Of a DNA stretch of 64,000 nucleotides, positions 56,559-63,834 are shown one piece after another (position 1 is the stretch's first letter; each line of letters begins with the position of its first letter). Origin of the DNA: Reichenbachiella agariperforans. GTDB taxonomy: Bacteria; Bacteroidota; Bacteroidia; Cytophagales; Cyclobacteriaceae. The stretch is taken from the NCBI RefSeq assembly GCF_900142205.1, contig NZ_FRAA01000002.1, positions 246,282 to 310,281 on the forward strand, in the 5' to 3' direction. Under the pieces are notes generated by a model. That model saw only the letters and a list, made by a program, of their open reading frames with translations. It did not search any database and had not been told where the DNA came from. The translations under genes and the position numbers were made by a program.

Positions 56559-57301
56559 TCAAAAGCGCCGTAATCCTATTCTTGTCCGCCTTCCTCGGAG
56601 GTATCCTTGCGATCAACTCCATAGACATCATCAGCAAAAACATCAAGCACTTGCTCGTGTTTGCGGGCTCGTTTCTATTTTCGGTCACCATCATCCACAT
56701 CTTACCTGAGATATTCGAAGCAGGAGAAGACCACCTGCACGTAGGCGGGTTCATACTCCTAGGGTTCTTTTTTCAACAAGTACTAGAATACTTCACCGAT
56801 GGCGTAGAGCACGGGCACATGCACCATCATCACAAAGGGGAAGAAGGGCATACGACCCTCAAAAGCATCTCGCTCATGGTCGCACTCAGCGTCCACGGTT
56901 TTCTCGAGGGTACGCTACTCGCTCATCCCGGGAGCGTACATACCGATCATACCGAAGGCACTCTACTAGCAGGCATCATCTTTCACAAAATCCCTGCAGC
57001 TCTGGCGCTGATCTCGGTACTCGCTTGCCAATACAAGTCTCGCAAGACACAACTGATCTTGCTGACGATCTTTGCTTTGGCCTCACCAATCGGGGTATTT
57101 ACGGGGCATTTTCTAGGAGATTTCGGATTGCTCGACTCGACAGGCATGGTCCTATTGTTTGCATTCGTTTCGGGAAACTTCCTCCATATCTCTACGACGA
57201 TATTCTTGGAATCGAGCCCCGGACACCGCTGGAGTTCACGCAAACTCATCATCAGCCTTTTTGGTGCAGGCTTGGCTGTCCTTTCAGAAATGATCTTTTA
57301 A
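56555..57301 (+). CDS. ZIP-family divalent-metal transporter
   Basis: Inner-membrane importer of zinc or similar metals. 248 residues, eight hydrophobic helices, a His-rich loop between helices 3 and 4 (HGHMHHHHKGEEGH, about residues 86-99), and the ZIP metal-site helices with VHGFLEG and FHKIPAA. The start overlaps the methyltransferase stop by 4 bp. Confidence 0.88.
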   Translation: MIKSAVILFLSAFLGGILAINSIDIISKNIKHLLVFAGSFLFSVTIIHILPEIFEAGEDHLHVGGFILLGFFFQQVLEYFTDGVEHGHMHHHHKGEEGHTTLKSISLMVALSVHGFLEGTLLAHPGSVHTDHTEGTLLAGIIFHKIPAALALISVLACQYKSRKTQLILLTIFALASPIGVFTGHFLGDFGLLDSTGMVLLFAFVSGNFLHISTTIFLESSPGHRWSSRKLIISLFGAGLAVLSEMIF

Positions 57302-57370
57302 AACCATATAATGGCAATCCAAAACATATCCTTGCTCGACAAACTCTCTGAAATAATTCACGATCGAGCC

Positions 57371-57401
57371 GTTTGCAAACCCGTTATTTTTCCTACATTT
57401 G
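57371..57401 (+). promoter_or_regulatory. promoter of the his operon
   Basis: TTTG (57372-57375), an 18-bp spacer, then TACATTTG (57394-57401): the best Bacteroidota-type promoter in the window. The -33 box is inside a 10-bp palindrome, GTTTGCAAAC (57371-57380). The leader-peptide ATG at 57413 is 11 bp downstream of the -7 box. Confidence 0.8.
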
Positions 57402-57412
57402 CGGCAATAGTT

Positions 57413-57472
57413 ATGACAACAAACAGACAACATCATCACCATACAATGAAACGCTCAGGCGAGGTGATATAG
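57413..57472 (+). CDS. his operon leader peptide (His-rich attenuator peptide)
   Basis: A 19-codon frame, MTTNRQHHHHTMKRSGEVI, with four consecutive His codons (CAT CAT CAC CAT, 57431-57442) ending in TAG. It sits between a strong promoter and a strong intrinsic terminator, directly upstream of hisG. Ribosome stalling at the His codons when charged His-tRNA is low is the accepted logic for such leaders. Too short to be found by ordinary gene callers. Confidence 0.9.
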   Translation: MTTNRQHHHHTMKRSGEVI

Positions 57473-57535
57473 TTGTGTCTAAAAAATACTTTTATCAATC
57501 CCGTCTGATTAATTTTGGACGGGATTTTTTTTGCC
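57435..57535 (+). promoter_or_regulatory. his attenuator: anti-terminator and terminator region
   Basis: The His-codon segment ATCACC (57435-57440) can pair with GGTGAT (57463-57468), the classic 1:2 stem. Downstream, AATCCCGTC (57497-57505) pairs perfectly with GACGGGATT (57518-57526), followed by eight T (57525-57532), a 3:4 intrinsic terminator. A weak competing 2:3 pairing of TGATA (57465-57469) with TATCA (57493-57497) is possible. This is the attenuation layout. The alternative pairing is inferred, not proved. Confidence 0.8.
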
Positions 57536-57569
57536 CTTTCCAGAACACCCAGACTTTAAAAACAGAAAC

Positions 57570-58427
57570 ATGAGTACATTAAAAATCGCAGTTCAGAAAT
57601 CCGGAAGATTAAACGACGACTCTATTGGTCTATTGAAGAACTGCGGCATTCACATTGACAATGGCAAAGATCAATTGAAGGCCAGCGCGTCTAACTTCCC
57701 GATGGATGTATTGTATTTGAGAAATGGTGATATCCCCCAATATGTAGAAGATGGTGTGGCAGACATTGCTATCGTCGGCGAAAACCTCCTGGTCGAGGCA
57801 GGCAACGATATAGAAGTAGTGAGAAAACTCGGTTTCTCCAAATGTAAGCTATCTCTTGCTGTACCCAAAGAACTGGACTATGAAGGCGTACAATACTTCG
57901 ACGGCAAACGTATCGCTACCTCCTACCCCAACACCCTTCAGCAATACCTTGACCAACACAACGTGAAAGCCGACATCCACGTCATCAAAGGATCCGTAGA
58001 GATCGCTCCCAACATCGGCTTGGCCGAAGGGATTTGTGACTTGGTCAGCTCAGGCAGTACTTTGTTTAAAAACGGCCTCAAGGAAGCGGATCAAATCTTG
58101 ATATCTGAAGCCGTTTTGGTAAAAAGCAAAAAATTGACCCCAGAGCAAGAAGAACTACTGGACACCCTTCTATTCAGACTAGATGCGGTACAAAAAGGTA
58201 AAAAATCGAAGTATGTCCTCATGAACGTACCCAATGACAAAATCGATGGTGTGATCAACATGCTCCCAGGGATGAGAAGCCCTACGGTACTGCCCTTGGC
58301 AGAAGCAGGATGGAGCTCAGTACACACCGTGATCGAGGAAGGAAAATTCTGGGAAGTCATCGACCAACTGAAAGCTGCCGGTGCAGAAGGAATACTCATC
58401 GTCCCAATCGAAAAAATGGTACTATGA
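57570..58427 (+). CDS. hisG: ATP phosphoribosyltransferase, long form (HisG)
   Basis: First and feedback-controlled step of histidine synthesis: joins ATP and phosphoribosyl pyrophosphate. 285 residues, the long form with a C-terminal ACT-like regulatory domain (MLPGMRSPTVLPL, GILIVPIEKM). The frame is open from 57531 but the first part overlaps the attenuator terminator tail. The ATG at 57570 (MSTLKIAVQKSGRL) is the family start. It overlaps hisD by 4 bp (ATGA). The long form does not need HisZ. Confidence 0.97.
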   Translation: MSTLKIAVQKSGRLNDDSIGLLKNCGIHIDNGKDQLKASASNFPMDVLYLRNGDIPQYVEDGVADIAIVGENLLVEAGNDIEVVRKLGFSKCKLSLAVPKELDYEGVQYFDGKRIATSYPNTLQQYLDQHNVKADIHVIKGSVEIAPNIGLAEGICDLVSSGSTLFKNGLKEADQILISEAVLVKSKKLTPEQEELLDTLLFRLDAVQKGKKSKYVLMNVPNDKIDGVINMLPGMRSPTVLPLAEAGWSSVHTVIEEGKFWEVIDQLKAAGAEGILIVPIEKMVL

Positions 58428-59719
58428 TCGTCTCTCTCTATCCCAAAAAATCAGAATGGGCAGCACTGACACAGCGCCCTGTACTCGAGCAGCAAAACTT
58501 GCAGTCCACGGTTGATGGTGTATTTGATGCGATCAAGACAAATGGCGACCAAGCTGTCTTGTCGTTTACCGAGCGGTTCGACAAGGCACAGTTGTCTTCA
58601 TCTGTTGTCTCGGATCAAGAAATCAAAGCGGCCCAGCAGCGCATCTCTGACGAACTCAAAGCGGCCATTCAATTGGCTGCCCAAAACATCGAGACCTTTC
58701 ATGCCGCCCAAAAACCTGGACGTGTAGAAGTCGAAACGGCTCCTGGCGTAGTGTGCTGGCAAGAAGCCAAAGGCATCCAAAAAGTAGGAATATACATCCC
58801 TGGTGGGACAGCCCCTTTGTTTTCGACCGTACTGATGCTTGCCATCCCTGCTACAATAGCAGGATGCGACGAAATCGTACTCTGCACCCCCCCAGGATCC
58901 GACGGGTCGGTCAACCCAGCGATTCTCTTCGCCGCGCAATACGCGGGCGTCAAGCAAGTGTACAAAGTCGGCGGCATCCAAGCCATCGGCGCGATGACTT
59001 TCGGCACTGAGAGTATCCCAAAAGTGGACAAGATTTTCGGGCCAGGCAACCAATACGTCACAGCTGCCAAACAGCGAGCCGCACAACTAGGTGTCGCAAT
59101 AGACATGCCTGCAGGTCCATCAGAACTGCTCGTCATGGCAGATGAAACCGCTGTACCGGCTTTCGTCGTATCTGATTTGCTATCCCAAGCCGAGCATGGG
59201 ATCGATAGTCAAGTGATTTGTGTAATCAAAAGTGAGAGCCAAGTCAGAGCGATCCAATCCGAATTGGAAGCGCAACTCGCCGTACTGCCCCGCAAAGAGA
59301 TCGCCCAAAAAGCCATCGCCAACTCCAAAATCATCTGCATCGCAGAGGATCAGGACTGTGTGGACTTCATCAACGAATATGCACCAGAGCACTACATCCT
59401 TTGTGTCCAAAACGAGGACTTCTACCTTGATCAGGTTCGGAACGCAGGGTCGGTATTCATCGGCAACTACACCCCGGAGAGCGCGGGAGATTATGCTTCG
59501 GGCACCAATCATACCCTACCAACCAATGGCTATGCCAAGTCATACAGCGGCGTGAATTTGGATTCGTTCATGAAGAAAATCACCTTCCAGAGAATCACGG
59601 CCACAGGCATACAAAATATAGGCCCTGCCATCGAACACATGGCGGCAGCCGAACTGCTAGACGCACACAAAAATGCCGTCACCGTACGGTTAGATTATTT
59701 AAAAACACGAGGCGAATAA
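58424..59719 (+). CDS. hisD: histidinol dehydrogenase
   Basis: Last two oxidations of histidine synthesis: histidinol to histidine with two NAD+, zinc enzyme. 431 residues with the family motifs IYIPGGTAPLFSTVLM, IDMPAGPSELLV, DLLSQAEHGIDSQ and YAPEHYI, and the C-terminal SGTNHTLPTNGYA. The start is the ATG within the ATGA overlap of the hisG stop. The earlier frame (58310) is inside hisG. Confidence 0.97.
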   Translation: MIVSLYPKKSEWAALTQRPVLEQQNLQSTVDGVFDAIKTNGDQAVLSFTERFDKAQLSSSVVSDQEIKAAQQRISDELKAAIQLAAQNIETFHAAQKPGRVEVETAPGVVCWQEAKGIQKVGIYIPGGTAPLFSTVLMLAIPATIAGCDEIVLCTPPGSDGSVNPAILFAAQYAGVKQVYKVGGIQAIGAMTFGTESIPKVDKIFGPGNQYVTAAKQRAAQLGVAIDMPAGPSELLVMADETAVPAFVVSDLLSQAEHGIDSQVICVIKSESQVRAIQSELEAQLAVLPRKEIAQKAIANSKIICIAEDQDCVDFINEYAPEHYILCVQNEDFYLDQVRNAGSVFIGNYTPESAGDYASGTNHTLPTNGYAKSYSGVNLDSFMKKITFQRITATGIQNIGPAIEHMAAAELLDAHKNAVTVRLDYLKTRGE

Positions 59720-59725
59720 AAAGCC

Positions 59726-60763
59726 ATGAACATAAGAAGTCTTTTACGAAAGAACATACAGTCGCTGACGCCTTACAGCTCGGCACGTGACGAATTTGAT
59801 AGCGTAGCAGAGGTCTATCTAGATGCCAACGAAAACCCGTTTGACAATGGCGTCAATCGCTACCCTGACCCCTATCAAAAACCCGTCAAGGCACGCCTAA
59901 GTGAGATCAAAAACATCGCACCAGAGAAAATCCTACTCGGAAATGGGAGCGATGAAGTGCTGGATCTCATCTATCGCGCATTCTGCGAACCCAAAGTGGA
60001 CAATGTCATCTCACACAACCCGAGCTACGGCATGTACCCCGTCTTGTCAGAGATCAATGACGTGGAACTTCGAAAAGTCAATTTGGATGCAGGATTTTCG
60101 CTTGACGCAAAAAAAATGATCGCTGCGTCAGACGAGCATACCAAGCTGTTCTTCATCTGCTCGCCTAACAACCCATCGGGCAATCTGCTCAACAAAGAGG
60201 AGATTCGTCAGATTCTGGATTTGAAAAAGGGAATCGTCGTGATTGATGAGGCATATATAGATTTTGCAGAGACGGATTCTTGGCTCACCGAGCTAGACCG
60301 CTACCCCAACCTCATCGTATGCCAGACCCTGTCCAAAGCTTGGGGGTTGGCAGGCCTGAGAGTAGGTATGTGTTTTGCGGCCGAAGAAATCGTCCGTGTA
60401 CTCAACGCCATCAAACCTCCCTACAACGTCAATGTGCTATCCCAAGAAGCGGCACTGAAGGCGCTAAACCAAGAGGACGAATTCAAAAAGCAACTGGCGA
60501 TTATCCTGGACGAAAAGAAGAAAGTAGAAGCGGCACTGGCTCAGTCGCCTTGTGTCCAAGAGTTGTTCCCATCGGACTCCAACTTTGTACTCGCTCGGGT
60601 CGAAAATGCCAACGCTTTGTATGATTTCTTACTAGAGAGAAAGGTGATCGTAAGAAATCGCTCCAAAGAACATTTGTGTGCCAACTGCCTTCGTTTCACC
60701 ATCGGTACACCCGAGGAAAACCAGCGATTGCTGGACGGAATAACAGACTACGAAAAGAAATAA
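59726..60763 (+). CDS. hisC: histidinol-phosphate aminotransferase
   Basis: PLP enzyme that transaminates imidazole-acetol phosphate to histidinol phosphate. 345 residues, with LDANENPF, the PLP-aspartate region DEAYIDFAE and the Schiff-base lysine in SKAWGLAGLRVG. Starts 6 bp after hisD in the same operon. Confidence 0.96.
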   Translation: MNIRSLLRKNIQSLTPYSSARDEFDSVAEVYLDANENPFDNGVNRYPDPYQKPVKARLSEIKNIAPEKILLGNGSDEVLDLIYRAFCEPKVDNVISHNPSYGMYPVLSEINDVELRKVNLDAGFSLDAKKMIAASDEHTKLFFICSPNNPSGNLLNKEEIRQILDLKKGIVVIDEAYIDFAETDSWLTELDRYPNLIVCQTLSKAWGLAGLRVGMCFAAEEIVRVLNAIKPPYNVNVLSQEAALKALNQEDEFKKQLAIILDEKKKVEAALAQSPCVQELFPSDSNFVLARVENANALYDFLLERKVIVRNRSKEHLCANCLRFTIGTPEENQRLLDGITDYEKK

Positions 60764-60801: not shown

Positions 60802-61935
60802 ATGAAAAAAGTACTATTCATCGACAGAGACGGCACCCTCGTATTGGAGCCTCCAGTGGACTACCAACTAGACTCTCTGGAAAAACTGGAATTCTACCCT
60901 GGGGCATTCCAGTGGATGGCCAAAATCGCCAAGCTCGGTTATGAACTCGTCATGGTCACCAACCAAGACGGTTTGGGCACGGACTCTTTTCCAGAAGACA
61001 CCTTTTGGCCAGCGCACAACAAGTGCATGCAGGCATTTGAAAACGAAGGAGTAAAGTTCGATGCAGTCAAAATCGACCGCAGCTTCCCTGCTGACAATGC
61101 TCCGACACGCAAGCCGCGCACCGGCATGCTCACCGAGTACATGGATGGCAGTTATGACTTGACCAATTCATACGTGATCGGTGACCGTATCACAGACGTA
61201 GAATTGGCAAAAAACTTGGGTGCAAAGGCGATTTTCATCCAACAAGAAGAAGGGCTGGGCGCTGAGGAAATATCTACCAAGGTAGAAGAATTGCAACCCT
61301 CCATCGCGCTGACAACCACTGATTGGGAAGATATCTACAACCTCGTCAGTCGCGGTTCACGCAAGGGTACCGTCAAGCGTACCACCAAAGAAACTGATAT
61401 CGATATCGAAGTGGAACTAGACGGCACAGGCCAAGCCGATATCGACACGGGCATCAAGTTCTTTGATCACATGCTGGATCAGATCGCCAAACACGGACTA
61501 TTGGATCTCAAAATCCAAGTCAAAGGTGATCTCGAAGTAGACGAACACCACACGATCGAAGACACTGGCATAGCCCTCGGCGAGGCGATCGCCGAAGCGC
61601 TAGGCAACAAAAAAGGAATCGAAAGGTACGGCTTCTGCCTGCCGATGGATGATTGCCTCTGTCAGGTAGCCTTAGATTTCGGAGGACGAAACTGGATCGA
61701 ATGGGATGCGGAGTTCAAACGCGAAATGGTCGGCAAGATGCCTACCGAGATGTTCTTCCACTTCTTCAAATCCTTCTCTGATGCAGCCAAGTGCAACCTC
61801 AACATCAAAGCAGAAGGAGACAACGAACACCACAAGATCGAAGGCATTTTCAAGGCTTTTGCGAAAGCCATCAAAATGTCCGTCAAACAAGACAAAGACA
61901 AAATGATCCTGCCATCAACCAAAGGGATGCTATGA
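60802..61935 (+). CDS. hisB: bifunctional histidinol-phosphatase / imidazoleglycerol-phosphate dehydratase
   Basis: Two activities: N-terminal HAD phosphatase (residues about 1-165, DxD motif FIDRDGTLV) and C-terminal dehydratase (about 185-377, with the metal-binding [16 protein letters not shown] and ending in DNEHHKIE). The E. coli-type cysteine zinc-binding loop of the phosphatase half is missing; that region reads [10 protein letters not shown]. The fused form occurs in Bacteroidota and Enterobacteria. It overlaps hisH by 4 bp (ATGA). Confidence 0.96.
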
Positions 61936-62519
61936 GTAAAGTAGTAATAATAGATTACGGAGCTGGCAATGTTCGCTCGGTCAAGTTTGCGCTGGAGCGC
62001 ATGGGCATCACACCGATGCTAAGCCGAGATGCCCCAGAGATCCAATCCGCAGACAAAATCATCTTCCCTGGCGTAGGTGAGGCAAGTAGCTCGATGAAAG
62101 CACTGGAAAACTACGGATTGATCGAGGTGATCCAAAATGCCAAGCAGCCCTTCCTAGGCATCTGTCTCGGCATGCAGATGATGTGTGAGTCATCCGAAGA
62201 AAATAACACCCAAGGGCTCGGCATATTTCCTTTGCCTGTGAAGTTGTTCGCTGGAGGAGCAGTGAAAGTGCCACACATGGGATGGAACCAAATCGAAGCG
62301 TTGAAAACACCGATTTTCAACGGACTGGAAGAGAAAGAGTACATGTATTTTGTGCACTCCTACTACGTACCGGATTCGGAATGGACGATTGCCAAAGCGA
62401 GCTATCCAACCCCCTTCAGTGCGGCACTTCACAAAGACAACTTCTATGGCTGCCAGTTTCACCCCGAAAAGAGTGGGACATTTGGCCAGCAGATTTTGAA
62501 GAATTTTATTGAGATGTAG
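61932..62519 (+). CDS. hisH: imidazole glycerol phosphate synthase, glutamine amidotransferase subunit
   Basis: Supplies ammonia from glutamine to HisF. 195 residues, class I amidotransferase with nucleophile C78 in GICLGMQM, the His-x-Glu of the triad in FHPEKSG near the C-terminus, and an opening [12 protein letters not shown]. Start at the ATGA overlap with hisB. The longer frame is a shadow within hisB. The next gene is a toxin-antitoxin pair, not hisA. Confidence 0.96.
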
Positions 62520-62599: not shown

Positions 62600-62833
62600 A
62601 TGAGTACCTTAGAACAGATAACAGAAAAATTAAAACTGATCAAAGAAGAAACCATTTTAAACCAAATTTTGGAGATGGTAACCCTTGAACTCGAAATGAG
62701 TCAGAAGATCATGACACTAAGTGATGCTCAAAAAGCAGCTATTCAAGAAGGAATTGATGACATTGAAGCAGGGCGAACATTCAGCCATACAGAAGTCAAC
62801 CATCAAATTGAAGGATGGCTGAAAGAAAAATAA
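62600..62833 (+). CDS. antitoxin of a ParDE/RelBE-like module, inserted in the his operon
   Basis: 77 residues. The C-terminal half matches the addiction-module antitoxin pattern (LSDAQKAAIQEGIDDIEAGRTFSHTEV, then a Trp near the end). The N-terminal half is a helical Glu/Leu-rich DNA-binding or toxin-binding segment. It is 80 bp after hisH and overlaps the toxin start by 19 bp, the usual coupling of the two. It may have its own promoter in the 80-bp gap (A/T-rich), although no consensus box is exact. Confidence 0.8.
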   Translation: MSTLEQITEKLKLIKEETILNQILEMVTLELEMSQKIMTLSDAQKAAIQEGIDDIEAGRTFSHTEVNHQIEGWLKEK

Positions 62834-63112
62834 TTTGGACAGCCAAAGCGGCTTTTGATCTTCAAAGGATTGTTGAATACTGGGTAGATAAAACAGGAAA
62901 TAGCCAGTACAGTGCCAAGCTATTCAAACTCGTTAATAAGTCAGTCTTAACCCTCAAAGTATTCCCTAATACAGGTAGAGTTTCTGATTTTGATGATGTA
63001 CGAGTAAAACCAGTCCTCAACTATTTGATTTTCTATCAGACAACCCCCAAAAGAAATAAGAATTTTGAGAGTATGGGACTCTCGCAGAAACCCCGATAAA
63101 CTGAAGATATAA
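62815..63112 (+). pseudogene. ParE/RelE-family toxin gene with a +1 frameshift near its 3' end
   Basis: The frame 62815-63099 codes for 94 residues: RKIIWTAKAAFDLQRIVEYWVDKTG and YLIFYQ are typical of the ParE/RelE toxin fold, but the last 20 residues (KRNKNFESMGLSQKPR) are unlike the family. A second frame that starts in the run at 63044-63052 (five C, four A) gives the expected ending: RILRVWDSRRNPDKLKI, with a stop at 63110-63112. So one extra base in the homopolymer displaced the conserved C-terminus. It may be a true inactivating change, programmed slippage or a sequencing error. Confidence 0.75.
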
Positions 63113-63114
63113 TT

Positions 63115-63834
63115 ATGCGTATCATTCCCGCAATAGATCTAATAGATGGCAAGTGTGTCCGACTCACCAAGGGTGACTATGACCAGAAAAAAATATACAA
63201 CGAAAATCCACTCGAAGTGGCTAAGGAATTCGAAGCGGCGGGTATCAAACACCTCCACCTCGTAGATCTGGATGGGTCGAAAGCTCGTGAAATCAAAAAT
63301 GCAGCAGTACTTGAAAGCATCACTGCTCACACAGGGCTGATCGTCGATTTTGGGGGAGGTATTCGTTCGGACAGAGACATCAACATCGCTTTTGATGCGG
63401 GTGCTGCTCAGGTCAACCTCGGCAGTGTAGCCTTAGAAAACAAAAACTTGTTCGGTGAGTGGCTCCAGAAGTTCGGGAGTGAAAAAATCATCCTCAGTGC
63501 CGACTCCACCAATCGCAAGATCGCCATCAACGGCTGGCAAGAAGAATCTCAAGTAGACCTTTTTGACCTGATCAAAGAATACGAAGCAATGGGCAACCAG
63601 TATATGGTCTGTACAGACATCAGCAAAGACGGTATGTTGCAAGGAATCGCCGTAGATTTGTACGAAGACCTGATGCGTGAATTTCCAAAACAAAAGATAG
63701 TCGCTAGCGGTGGCGTCAAAGACATCACAGATGTAAAGGCCGCAGCTGCACTAAAAATGGACGGCATCATCATCGGCAAAGCCATCTACGAAAACAAGAT
63801 CTCACTGAAACAACTCGAAGCATATGCTGACTAA
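63115..63834 (+). CDS. hisA: phosphoribosylformimino-5-aminoimidazole carboxamide ribotide isomerase
   Basis: Amadori isomerase of histidine synthesis, a TIM barrel made of two half-barrels. 239 residues with the catalytic Asp in [14 protein letters not shown] (N-terminal half) and the second Asp in the [12 protein letters not shown] stretch. The start is 2 bp after the frame-restored toxin stop (63112). It overlaps hisF by 11 bp. Confidence 0.96.

Follow-up and report, generated by a model that had tools for sequence, protein, structure and literature searches.

A structured leader of hisG has already been described in Flavobacterium psychrophilum, where operons for amino acids are reported to show clues to attenuation by leader peptides and hisG is preceded by a structured element that is conserved in other Flavobacteriaceae and draws no Rfam hits (PMC9723704). 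That element sits in the same place, and belongs to the same class, as the leader examined here; the section of that report on 5' cis-regulatory RNAs gives no peptide, segments, covariation or distribution for it (PMC9723704). Elsewhere among these bacteria, Bacteroides thetaiotaomicron carries long 5' UTRs with short ORFs resembling attenuating leader peptides (PMC7366714), and the Bacteroid-trp motif (RF01692) is a candidate cis-regulatory RNA of Bacteroidetes that differs from a his leader in serving, by its name, trp genes and another amino acid (PMC2864571). His attenuators have also been predicted comparatively in some groups of Firmicutes; these share a predicted His leader peptide, terminator and antiterminator with the present case, but lie in another phylum, and the word "Bacteroidetes" is absent from the main text of that study (PMC9413887). 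For the control of both transcription and translation within one leader, the yxjB/tlrB leader of Bacillus subtilis offers a likeness to the switch tentatively proposed below, combining a leader peptide, a terminator and a read-through structure that hides the ribosome-binding region (PMC6851288). There, tylosin is sensed via ribosome stalling and, as far as that report's account of the leader goes, no overlapping antiterminator was identified (PMC6851288). Unlike yxjB/tlrB, the his leader has a terminator whose arm and loop would themselves pair with a downstream segment.

The textbook scheme is that of the gamma-proteobacterial his operon, whose attenuator is the His_leader family of Rfam (RF00514). 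The E. coli his leader contains more His codons than the leader studied here and, to our knowledge, its scheme has no fifth segment downstream of the terminator. A 2010 comparative attenuation paper by Lopatovskaya and co-workers may cover Bacteroidetes. Our subject is a window of 64,000 nucleotides from Reichenbachiella agariperforans, in which the DNA before hisG shares with the gamma-proteobacterial attenuator a run of His codons in a leader peptide, a competing antiterminator and terminator, and the position upstream of hisG; it differs in having a Bacteroidota promoter and no Rfam match, and its sub-lineage adds a fifth segment. A scan of the window at gathering scores matched no Rfam family, RF00514 included, and a permissive scan (to E 10) of positions 57300-57600 gave nine matches, all below gathering and none of them His_leader; RF01692 was likewise not among the matches of these scans, which rule out any known Rfam family as the identity of the leader. 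The part of the open-access literature that was searched, with queries not aimed at the fifth segment as such, yielded no publication on that segment or on the class-wide distribution of such leaders.

Anatomy of the leader

The features of the locus are collected in Table 1. The initial annotation, drawn from the letters of the window, had recognised a TTTG-N18-TACATTTG promoter, a 19-codon ORF with four consecutive His codons, pairing of ATCACC with GGTGAT between the His codons and the region after them, and a his operon with a bifunctional hisB. All of these stand. The two promoter boxes can be read directly, 18 nt apart, and both are conserved across 82 loci (82 of the 83 used for the swap tests below): 71 of the 82 have TAnnTTTG in the 90 nt preceding the leader ATG, and 53 have a correctly spaced TTG or TNTG box, the window included in both counts, against 5.4% and 0.5%, respectively, in simple shuffles. 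Direct reading confirms the ORF, and AUCACC (57435-57440) pairs with GGUGAU (57463-57468) in the minimum-energy fold of the leader RNA, a fold that beats 200 of 200 dinucleotide shuffles (z -3.6). Downstream, the operon was identified in the order hisG-hisD-hisC-hisB-hisH-hisA. The claim of a perfect, GC-rich 9-bp terminator followed by eight T fared well as to the stem—nine perfect pairs, five G-C and four A-T, which U-G, G-U and A-U extend to twelve—and less well as to the tail, where six T follow the stem and two of the claimed eight belong to the stem itself. What the analysis adds to the 1:2 pairing and terminator described at the outset is a competing antiterminator and a fifth segment.

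Table 1. Positions of the leader, its pairing segments and the his genes within the window
Feature	Position	Strand	Basis or remark
-33-like box TTTG, Bacteroidota-type promoter	57372-57375	+	read from sequence
-7-like box TACATTTG (TAnnTTTG)	57394-57401	+	read from sequence
Leader peptide ORF, MTTNRQHHHHTMKRSGEVI then stop, 19 codons	57413-57472	+	sequence and relatives
Four consecutive His codons, CAT CAT CAC CAT (proposed sensor)	57431-57442	+	
Segment 1, ACAAC and AUCACC, overlapping the His codons	57427-57440	+	minimum-energy fold
Partner of segment 1, GGUGAU and GUUGU	57463-57476	+	minimum-energy fold
Segment 2, UCAGGCG, antiterminator strand	57455-57461	+	3' of the His codons
Terminator hairpin, AATCCCGTCTGA-ttaatt-TTGGACGGGATT	57497-57526	+	sequence
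Segment 3, terminator 5' arm	57497-57508	+	CGUCUGA 57502-57508 can also pair with segment 2
Terminator loop	57509-57514	+	in many relatives pairs with segment 5
Segment 4: terminator 3' arm (57515-57526), then T tract as far as 57532	57515-57532	+	
Segment 5, interrupted in the window: CCAGAA 57540-57545 and CAGAC 57550-57554	57540-57554	+	
hisG, encoding ATP phosphoribosyltransferase, at the head of the operon	57570-58427	+	ATG at 57570
hisD	58424-59719	+	
hisC	59726-60763	+	
hisB, bifunctional	60802-61935	+	
hisH	61932-62519	+	
hisA	63115-63834	+	

Conservation and distribution

Leader and terminator are kept in all eight genomes of the genus that were searched, the window's own included. 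The genus leaders carry a run of four to five His, once in the form HHLHH, and end 97-106 nt before hisG, with the terminator following; the window's HisG shares 86% identity with the Reichenbachiella faecimaris protein. More broadly, a draw of 119 Bacteroidia genomes contained 56 with this HisG, and in 48 of these a His-rich ORF (at least three His in eight residues) lies within 350 nt upstream of hisG, compared with 2.8% of dinucleotide shuffles. Such an ORF is followed by a terminator in 37 of the 56, against 0.2% of shuffles, and for 8 to 11 of the 48 leaders the scans found no terminator. Thus, the His run and terminator that the initial annotation had hoped to see aligned among related genomes prove universal in the genus sample and widespread in the class. 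Its uncertainty as to how well such leaders are described in the phylum is met in part: they are the norm in the class draw, but in the window's own order just 30 of the first 90 loci have a His-rich ORF, 60 have none and 10 have ORF and terminator together (148 of the order's 194 genomes yielded a HisG, upstream DNA was available for 30+60+15 = 105 of them, and the counts are those of the first 90). Judged from the class draw, genes for this HisG in Bacteroidia are usually preceded by a His-rich leader, and probable histidine-sensing leaders look common in the class.

Loci chosen by protein similarity tell of the nearest relatives. Of 80 named loci, 78 have a His-rich ORF no more than 600 nt from hisG, and scans found ORF and terminator in 75; the 80 are the best, by HisG similarity, of 571 confirmed, so the sample is biased to the nearest HisG. 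One of the two loci in which the scan found no ORF has, by eye, a leader with two His (L126), and the other offers only 99 nt of upstream DNA (L130). A covariance model built from 34 leaders, the window's among them, scores 98 bits at the leader in the window's genome, where the next best match reaches 32.5 bits. Across the class draw (118 genomes), the ten best matches of the model outside the window's genome (E at most 1.9e-8) all lie, by their coordinates, directly upstream of hisG. A match with E 3e-7 was rejected as a terminator following a reading frame that we took by eye for yidC (L279), and model matches weaker than 1.9e-8 were left uncounted for that reason. A search of the window's genome with a His-codon pattern requiring CATCACCATCAC gave no matches; the window's own leader does not contain CATCACCATCAC.

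A quick HisG tree, with many weak forks, seven label changes and labels set by hand (some by eye), places 90 of the 91 rows labelled with a CGYYTGAG-type terminator, Reichenbachiella included, on the same side of the deepest split as Flavobacteriia. The HisG of Reichenbachiella and of two metagenome-assembled genomes labelled Cyclobacteriaceae (L099, L101) group with those of Flavobacteriia in this tree; the remaining loci of Reichenbachiella's family group (f1) have other leader types, and their HisG stands apart from that of Reichenbachiella. One locus (L024) has a Flavobacteriia-type leader, yet a HisG on the opposite side of the tree. From these sequences, the leader may have travelled together with the his genes.

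The same distribution bears on a simpler reading of the locus, namely that the terminator belongs to the zupT-like gene upstream and that the run of His codons is a coincidence. That gene does end at 57301, on the + strand like the leader, which would suit such a reading. It is nonetheless hard to reconcile with a His-rich ORF and a terminator recurring together before hisG across the class at a rate so far above that of shuffles, or with the conserved promoter boxes that sit between the upstream gene and the leader. Class-wide conservation rules out an ordinary terminator of the upstream gene, and we give the idea practically no credence.

Terminator and antiterminator as predicted alternative structures

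We consider it very probable, from anatomy and evolution, that the element controls the his operon by ribosome-mediated transcription attenuation. The textbook attenuation architecture proposed at the outset finds support at four levels: its parts, their conservation, covariation and alternative folds. Between leader and hisG, the consensus and the covariation of the stem predict an intrinsic terminator. In an alignment of relatives (A1; 34 of 41 references, chosen by hand), 98.5% of cells are paired in the 3:4 stem, with 33 compensatory cells against 9.3 in shuffles, so the stem covaries as had been anticipated.

A second partner for the 5' arm of this terminator lies 3' of the His codons, where UCAGGCG is complementary to CGUCUGA. 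Taken alone, the window offers only 7 bp for this 2:3 pairing (p 0.04-0.05), and it is the relatives that lend it weight. At p<=0.05 the pairing is found in 64 of 90 loci, the 90 being those remaining of 92 with ORF and terminator after two were dropped in which the terminator starts inside the ORF. In relatives it usually takes the forms CUCAGGCG/CGUCUGAG and CUCAAGCG/CGUUUGAG, such that a change in segment 3 is matched in segment 2 and segment 4 alike. Within A1, 91.2% of cells are paired (at most 47% in slid controls) and 15 are compensatory, against 5.3 in shuffles, a score that none of 500 shuffles reached; three pairs are changed on both sides, as many as 33 of the 500 shuffles attain. 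Swapping partners points the same way: among 83 of the 90 loci (those with a CG/CA-YYTG core and ATG start), reduced to one representative per distinct terminator core (n=32), 2:3 scores 17.4 for native partners against 14.8 (sd 0.48) after swapping, and 0 of 5000 swaps scored as high. The pairing is significant in only 14 of the 40 class-draw leaders with a terminator, and the antiterminator is therefore well supported in the window's lineage and less clear elsewhere.

Constrained folding of the window and three relatives (L098, L144, L128) illustrates how the alternatives might be chosen. The ribosome-free RNA folds into 1:2 and 3:4. Placing a ribosome on the second His codon while arm 4 is still missing gives 2:3, and moving it to the stop codon gives 3:4. 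The two-state behaviour envisaged by the initial annotation is thus seen, with ribosome position deciding between antiterminator and terminator for as long as arm 4 has not been made. When arm 4 has been added, all four sequences have 3:4 as their minimum-energy fold despite a stalled ribosome, from which it follows that antitermination would have to be kinetic. Judged by covariation of 2:3 within the lineage and by this in-silico folding, the antiterminator is predicted to be incompatible with the terminator, and to be hidden when a ribosome stands at the stop codon, only as long as arm 4 has yet to be transcribed.

In the mechanism that we infer, RNA polymerase would initiate just before the leader ORF and a ribosome would translate the His-rich peptide, which would serve as the sensor of histidine shortage. 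When charged His-tRNA is ample, the ribosome would reach the stop codon and cover segment 2, the 3:4 terminator would form, and transcription would end before hisG. When charged His-tRNA is scarce, the ribosome would stall at the His codons and UCAGGCG would pair with CGUCUGA ahead of the synthesis of arm 4; with the terminator then coming too late, the operon would be transcribed, giving the presumed response to histidine. If no ribosome is present, the 1:2 hairpin would leave the terminator free and the operon off. Kinetic antitermination of this kind would require the leading ribosome to stay close behind RNA polymerase, and the his leader makes it testable whether it does keep pace in Bacteroidota.

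A fifth segment upstream of hisG

New here is a putative fifth segment 5' of hisG, predicted from covariation to pair with the 5' arm and loop of the terminator. In many relatives it is located 13-39 nt before hisG, downstream of the terminator, and it appears to be a feature of Flavobacteriia, Reichenbachiella and others, the lineage whose HisG is most similar to that of the window. Chryseobacterium, for example, has GUCUGAGUAAA/UUUACUCAGAC as its two strands, and Flavobacterium has GUUUGAGUACA/UGUACUCAAAC. Loop and segment 5 change together from locus to locus—GAGAAAA/UUUUCUC (L108), GAGCAAUU/AAUUGCUU (L113), GAGUCAU/AUGGCUC (L139), GAGCUAAU/AUUAGCUC (L151) and GAUUUCA/UGAAAUC (L114)—with some of the pairs in these examples being G-U. 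The His leader at one locus (L141) differs from most of its relatives: 226 nt separate the start of its terminator from hisG and include a long extra stretch.

The 3:5 pairing reaches p<=0.05 in 72 of the 90 loci. In the partner-swap test, it scores 20.06 against 14.25 (sd 0.54), with 0 of 5000 swaps as high. A second alignment (A2), comprising 38 of 42 hand-chosen references and leaving out the genus Flavobacterium, in which segment 5 is further from hisG, has 90.3% of cells paired (at most 46% when slid) and 22 compensatory cells against 6.0. Across the class draw, 3:5 is significant in five of the 38 leaders with room for it, and those five have, by eye, CGYYTGAG-type terminators. In the window itself, segment 5 is interrupted. 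Its CCAGAA is complementary to UUUUGG (57513-57518), which is part loop and part 3' arm, and its CAGAC to positions 57503-57507. As one contiguous helix, the window's pairing has p 0.17-0.20; as an interrupted duplex with an internal loop, examined only after the contiguous helix had failed, it amounts to -10.7 kcal/mol with p 0.014 against shuffles. Covariation thus supports the 3:5 pairing in the sub-lineage, and the roles considered below are candidates. The covarying segment offers precise positions for compensatory mutations.

Candidate roles of the fifth segment

It is conceivable, if somewhat doubtful, that a translational layer adds to attenuation, with segment 5 hiding the hisG start codon (pairing 5:6) in whatever mRNA escapes termination. 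That 3:5 pairing would in turn free the hisG start, with one strand deciding transcription and translation together, is an equally tentative proposal. Covariation of 3:5 that includes the terminator loop is unexplained by 3:4 alone, and in 51 of the 68 loci with segment 5 this segment can form at least seven pairs overlapping the hisG start codon, where its partner is AUGAGUAAA or a stretch beginning AUGAGUAC. The 5:6 pairing accounts for 84.1% of cells, compared with at most 37.5% when slid, and none of 5000 partner permutations over 44 forms did as well; on the alignment, however, its covariation does not go beyond shuffles (146 of 500 reach the score), and 11 of the 68 loci retain 3:5 yet have at most four 5:6 pairs. 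Full-length folds are divided, two relatives (L098, L128) giving 3:4 with a hairpin over the hisG start, whereas the window and L144, folded without a ribosome, give no such hairpin. When states are forced in 66 of the 68 loci with good 3:5, the 3:5 state leaves the AUG unpaired in 37 of them, against 3 in 3:4 and 4 in 2:3; the 3:5 state is more stable than 2:3 in only 8 of the 66, such that simple displacement of segment 2 by segment 5 is not favoured. Ser2 of hisG is AGU or AGC in 61 of 61 loci with segment 5, compared with 32% inside hisG, but also in eight of eight loci without a good segment 5. Together, the 5:6 pairing in 51 of 68 loci and the exposure of the AUG in the forced state suggest a translational layer. 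Ribosomes of Bacteroidia are reported not to recognise Shine-Dalgarno sequences (PMC9976891).

The covariation of the terminator loop with segment 5 would also be expected if segment 5 were a target in trans, the loop of the terminated short leader RNA pairing with full-length his mRNA, and in most loci, those of the genus Flavobacterium set aside, 13-18 nt do lie between the end of the helix and hisG. Pairing in cis accounts for the same covariation, and we regard the trans reading as improbable. To return to the switch in cis, its fullest form would be a five-segment, two-level device of Flavobacteriia and allied Bacteroidia in which the 5' arm and loop of the terminator serve as a decoy for the hisG start, a scheme that we rate as possible rather than probable. 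If it is true, engagement of segment 3 in 3:4 would stop transcription, with segment 5 then available to mask the hisG start codon of leaked transcripts, pairing of segment 3 with segment 5 would expose that codon, and one RNA strand would set transcription and translation of the operon alike.

Neighbouring genes and other leaders

Between hisH and hisA, the window contains a small ORF (62600-62833) and a RelE/StbE-like toxin gene (62815-63099) that scores 24.9 bits with TIGR02385, just under the cut-off of 27.9. Among seven relatives in the genus, one (L300) has a divergent pair in this place, tblastn finds the pair absent from the hisH-hisA gap in five, and the corresponding region of the seventh (L301) matched no query.

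A second type of His-rich leader, ending in HHxHHSS or close to it, was seen at a number of loci (L003, L005-L008, L012, L014, L016, L025, L034, L022, L065 and L075). A short palindrome, for instance TTCCTCCTAAGGAGGAA in L003, contains or adjoins its stop codon, and the scan found no terminator downstream except at the palindrome of L005. By eye, the final His codons of three loci in one family (L240-L242, f59) can base-pair with the codons or stop immediately following them, and the scans found no terminator there. Leaders of pheA may serve as a comparison, leaving little room, by eye, for a fifth segment. The window's genome has one such leader (L213; G000:C8:878483-878613, - strand), Phe/Tyr-rich and followed by a terminator upstream of pheA, and similar Phe/Tyr-rich leaders precede pheA in several of 17 class-level loci, both as judged by eye.
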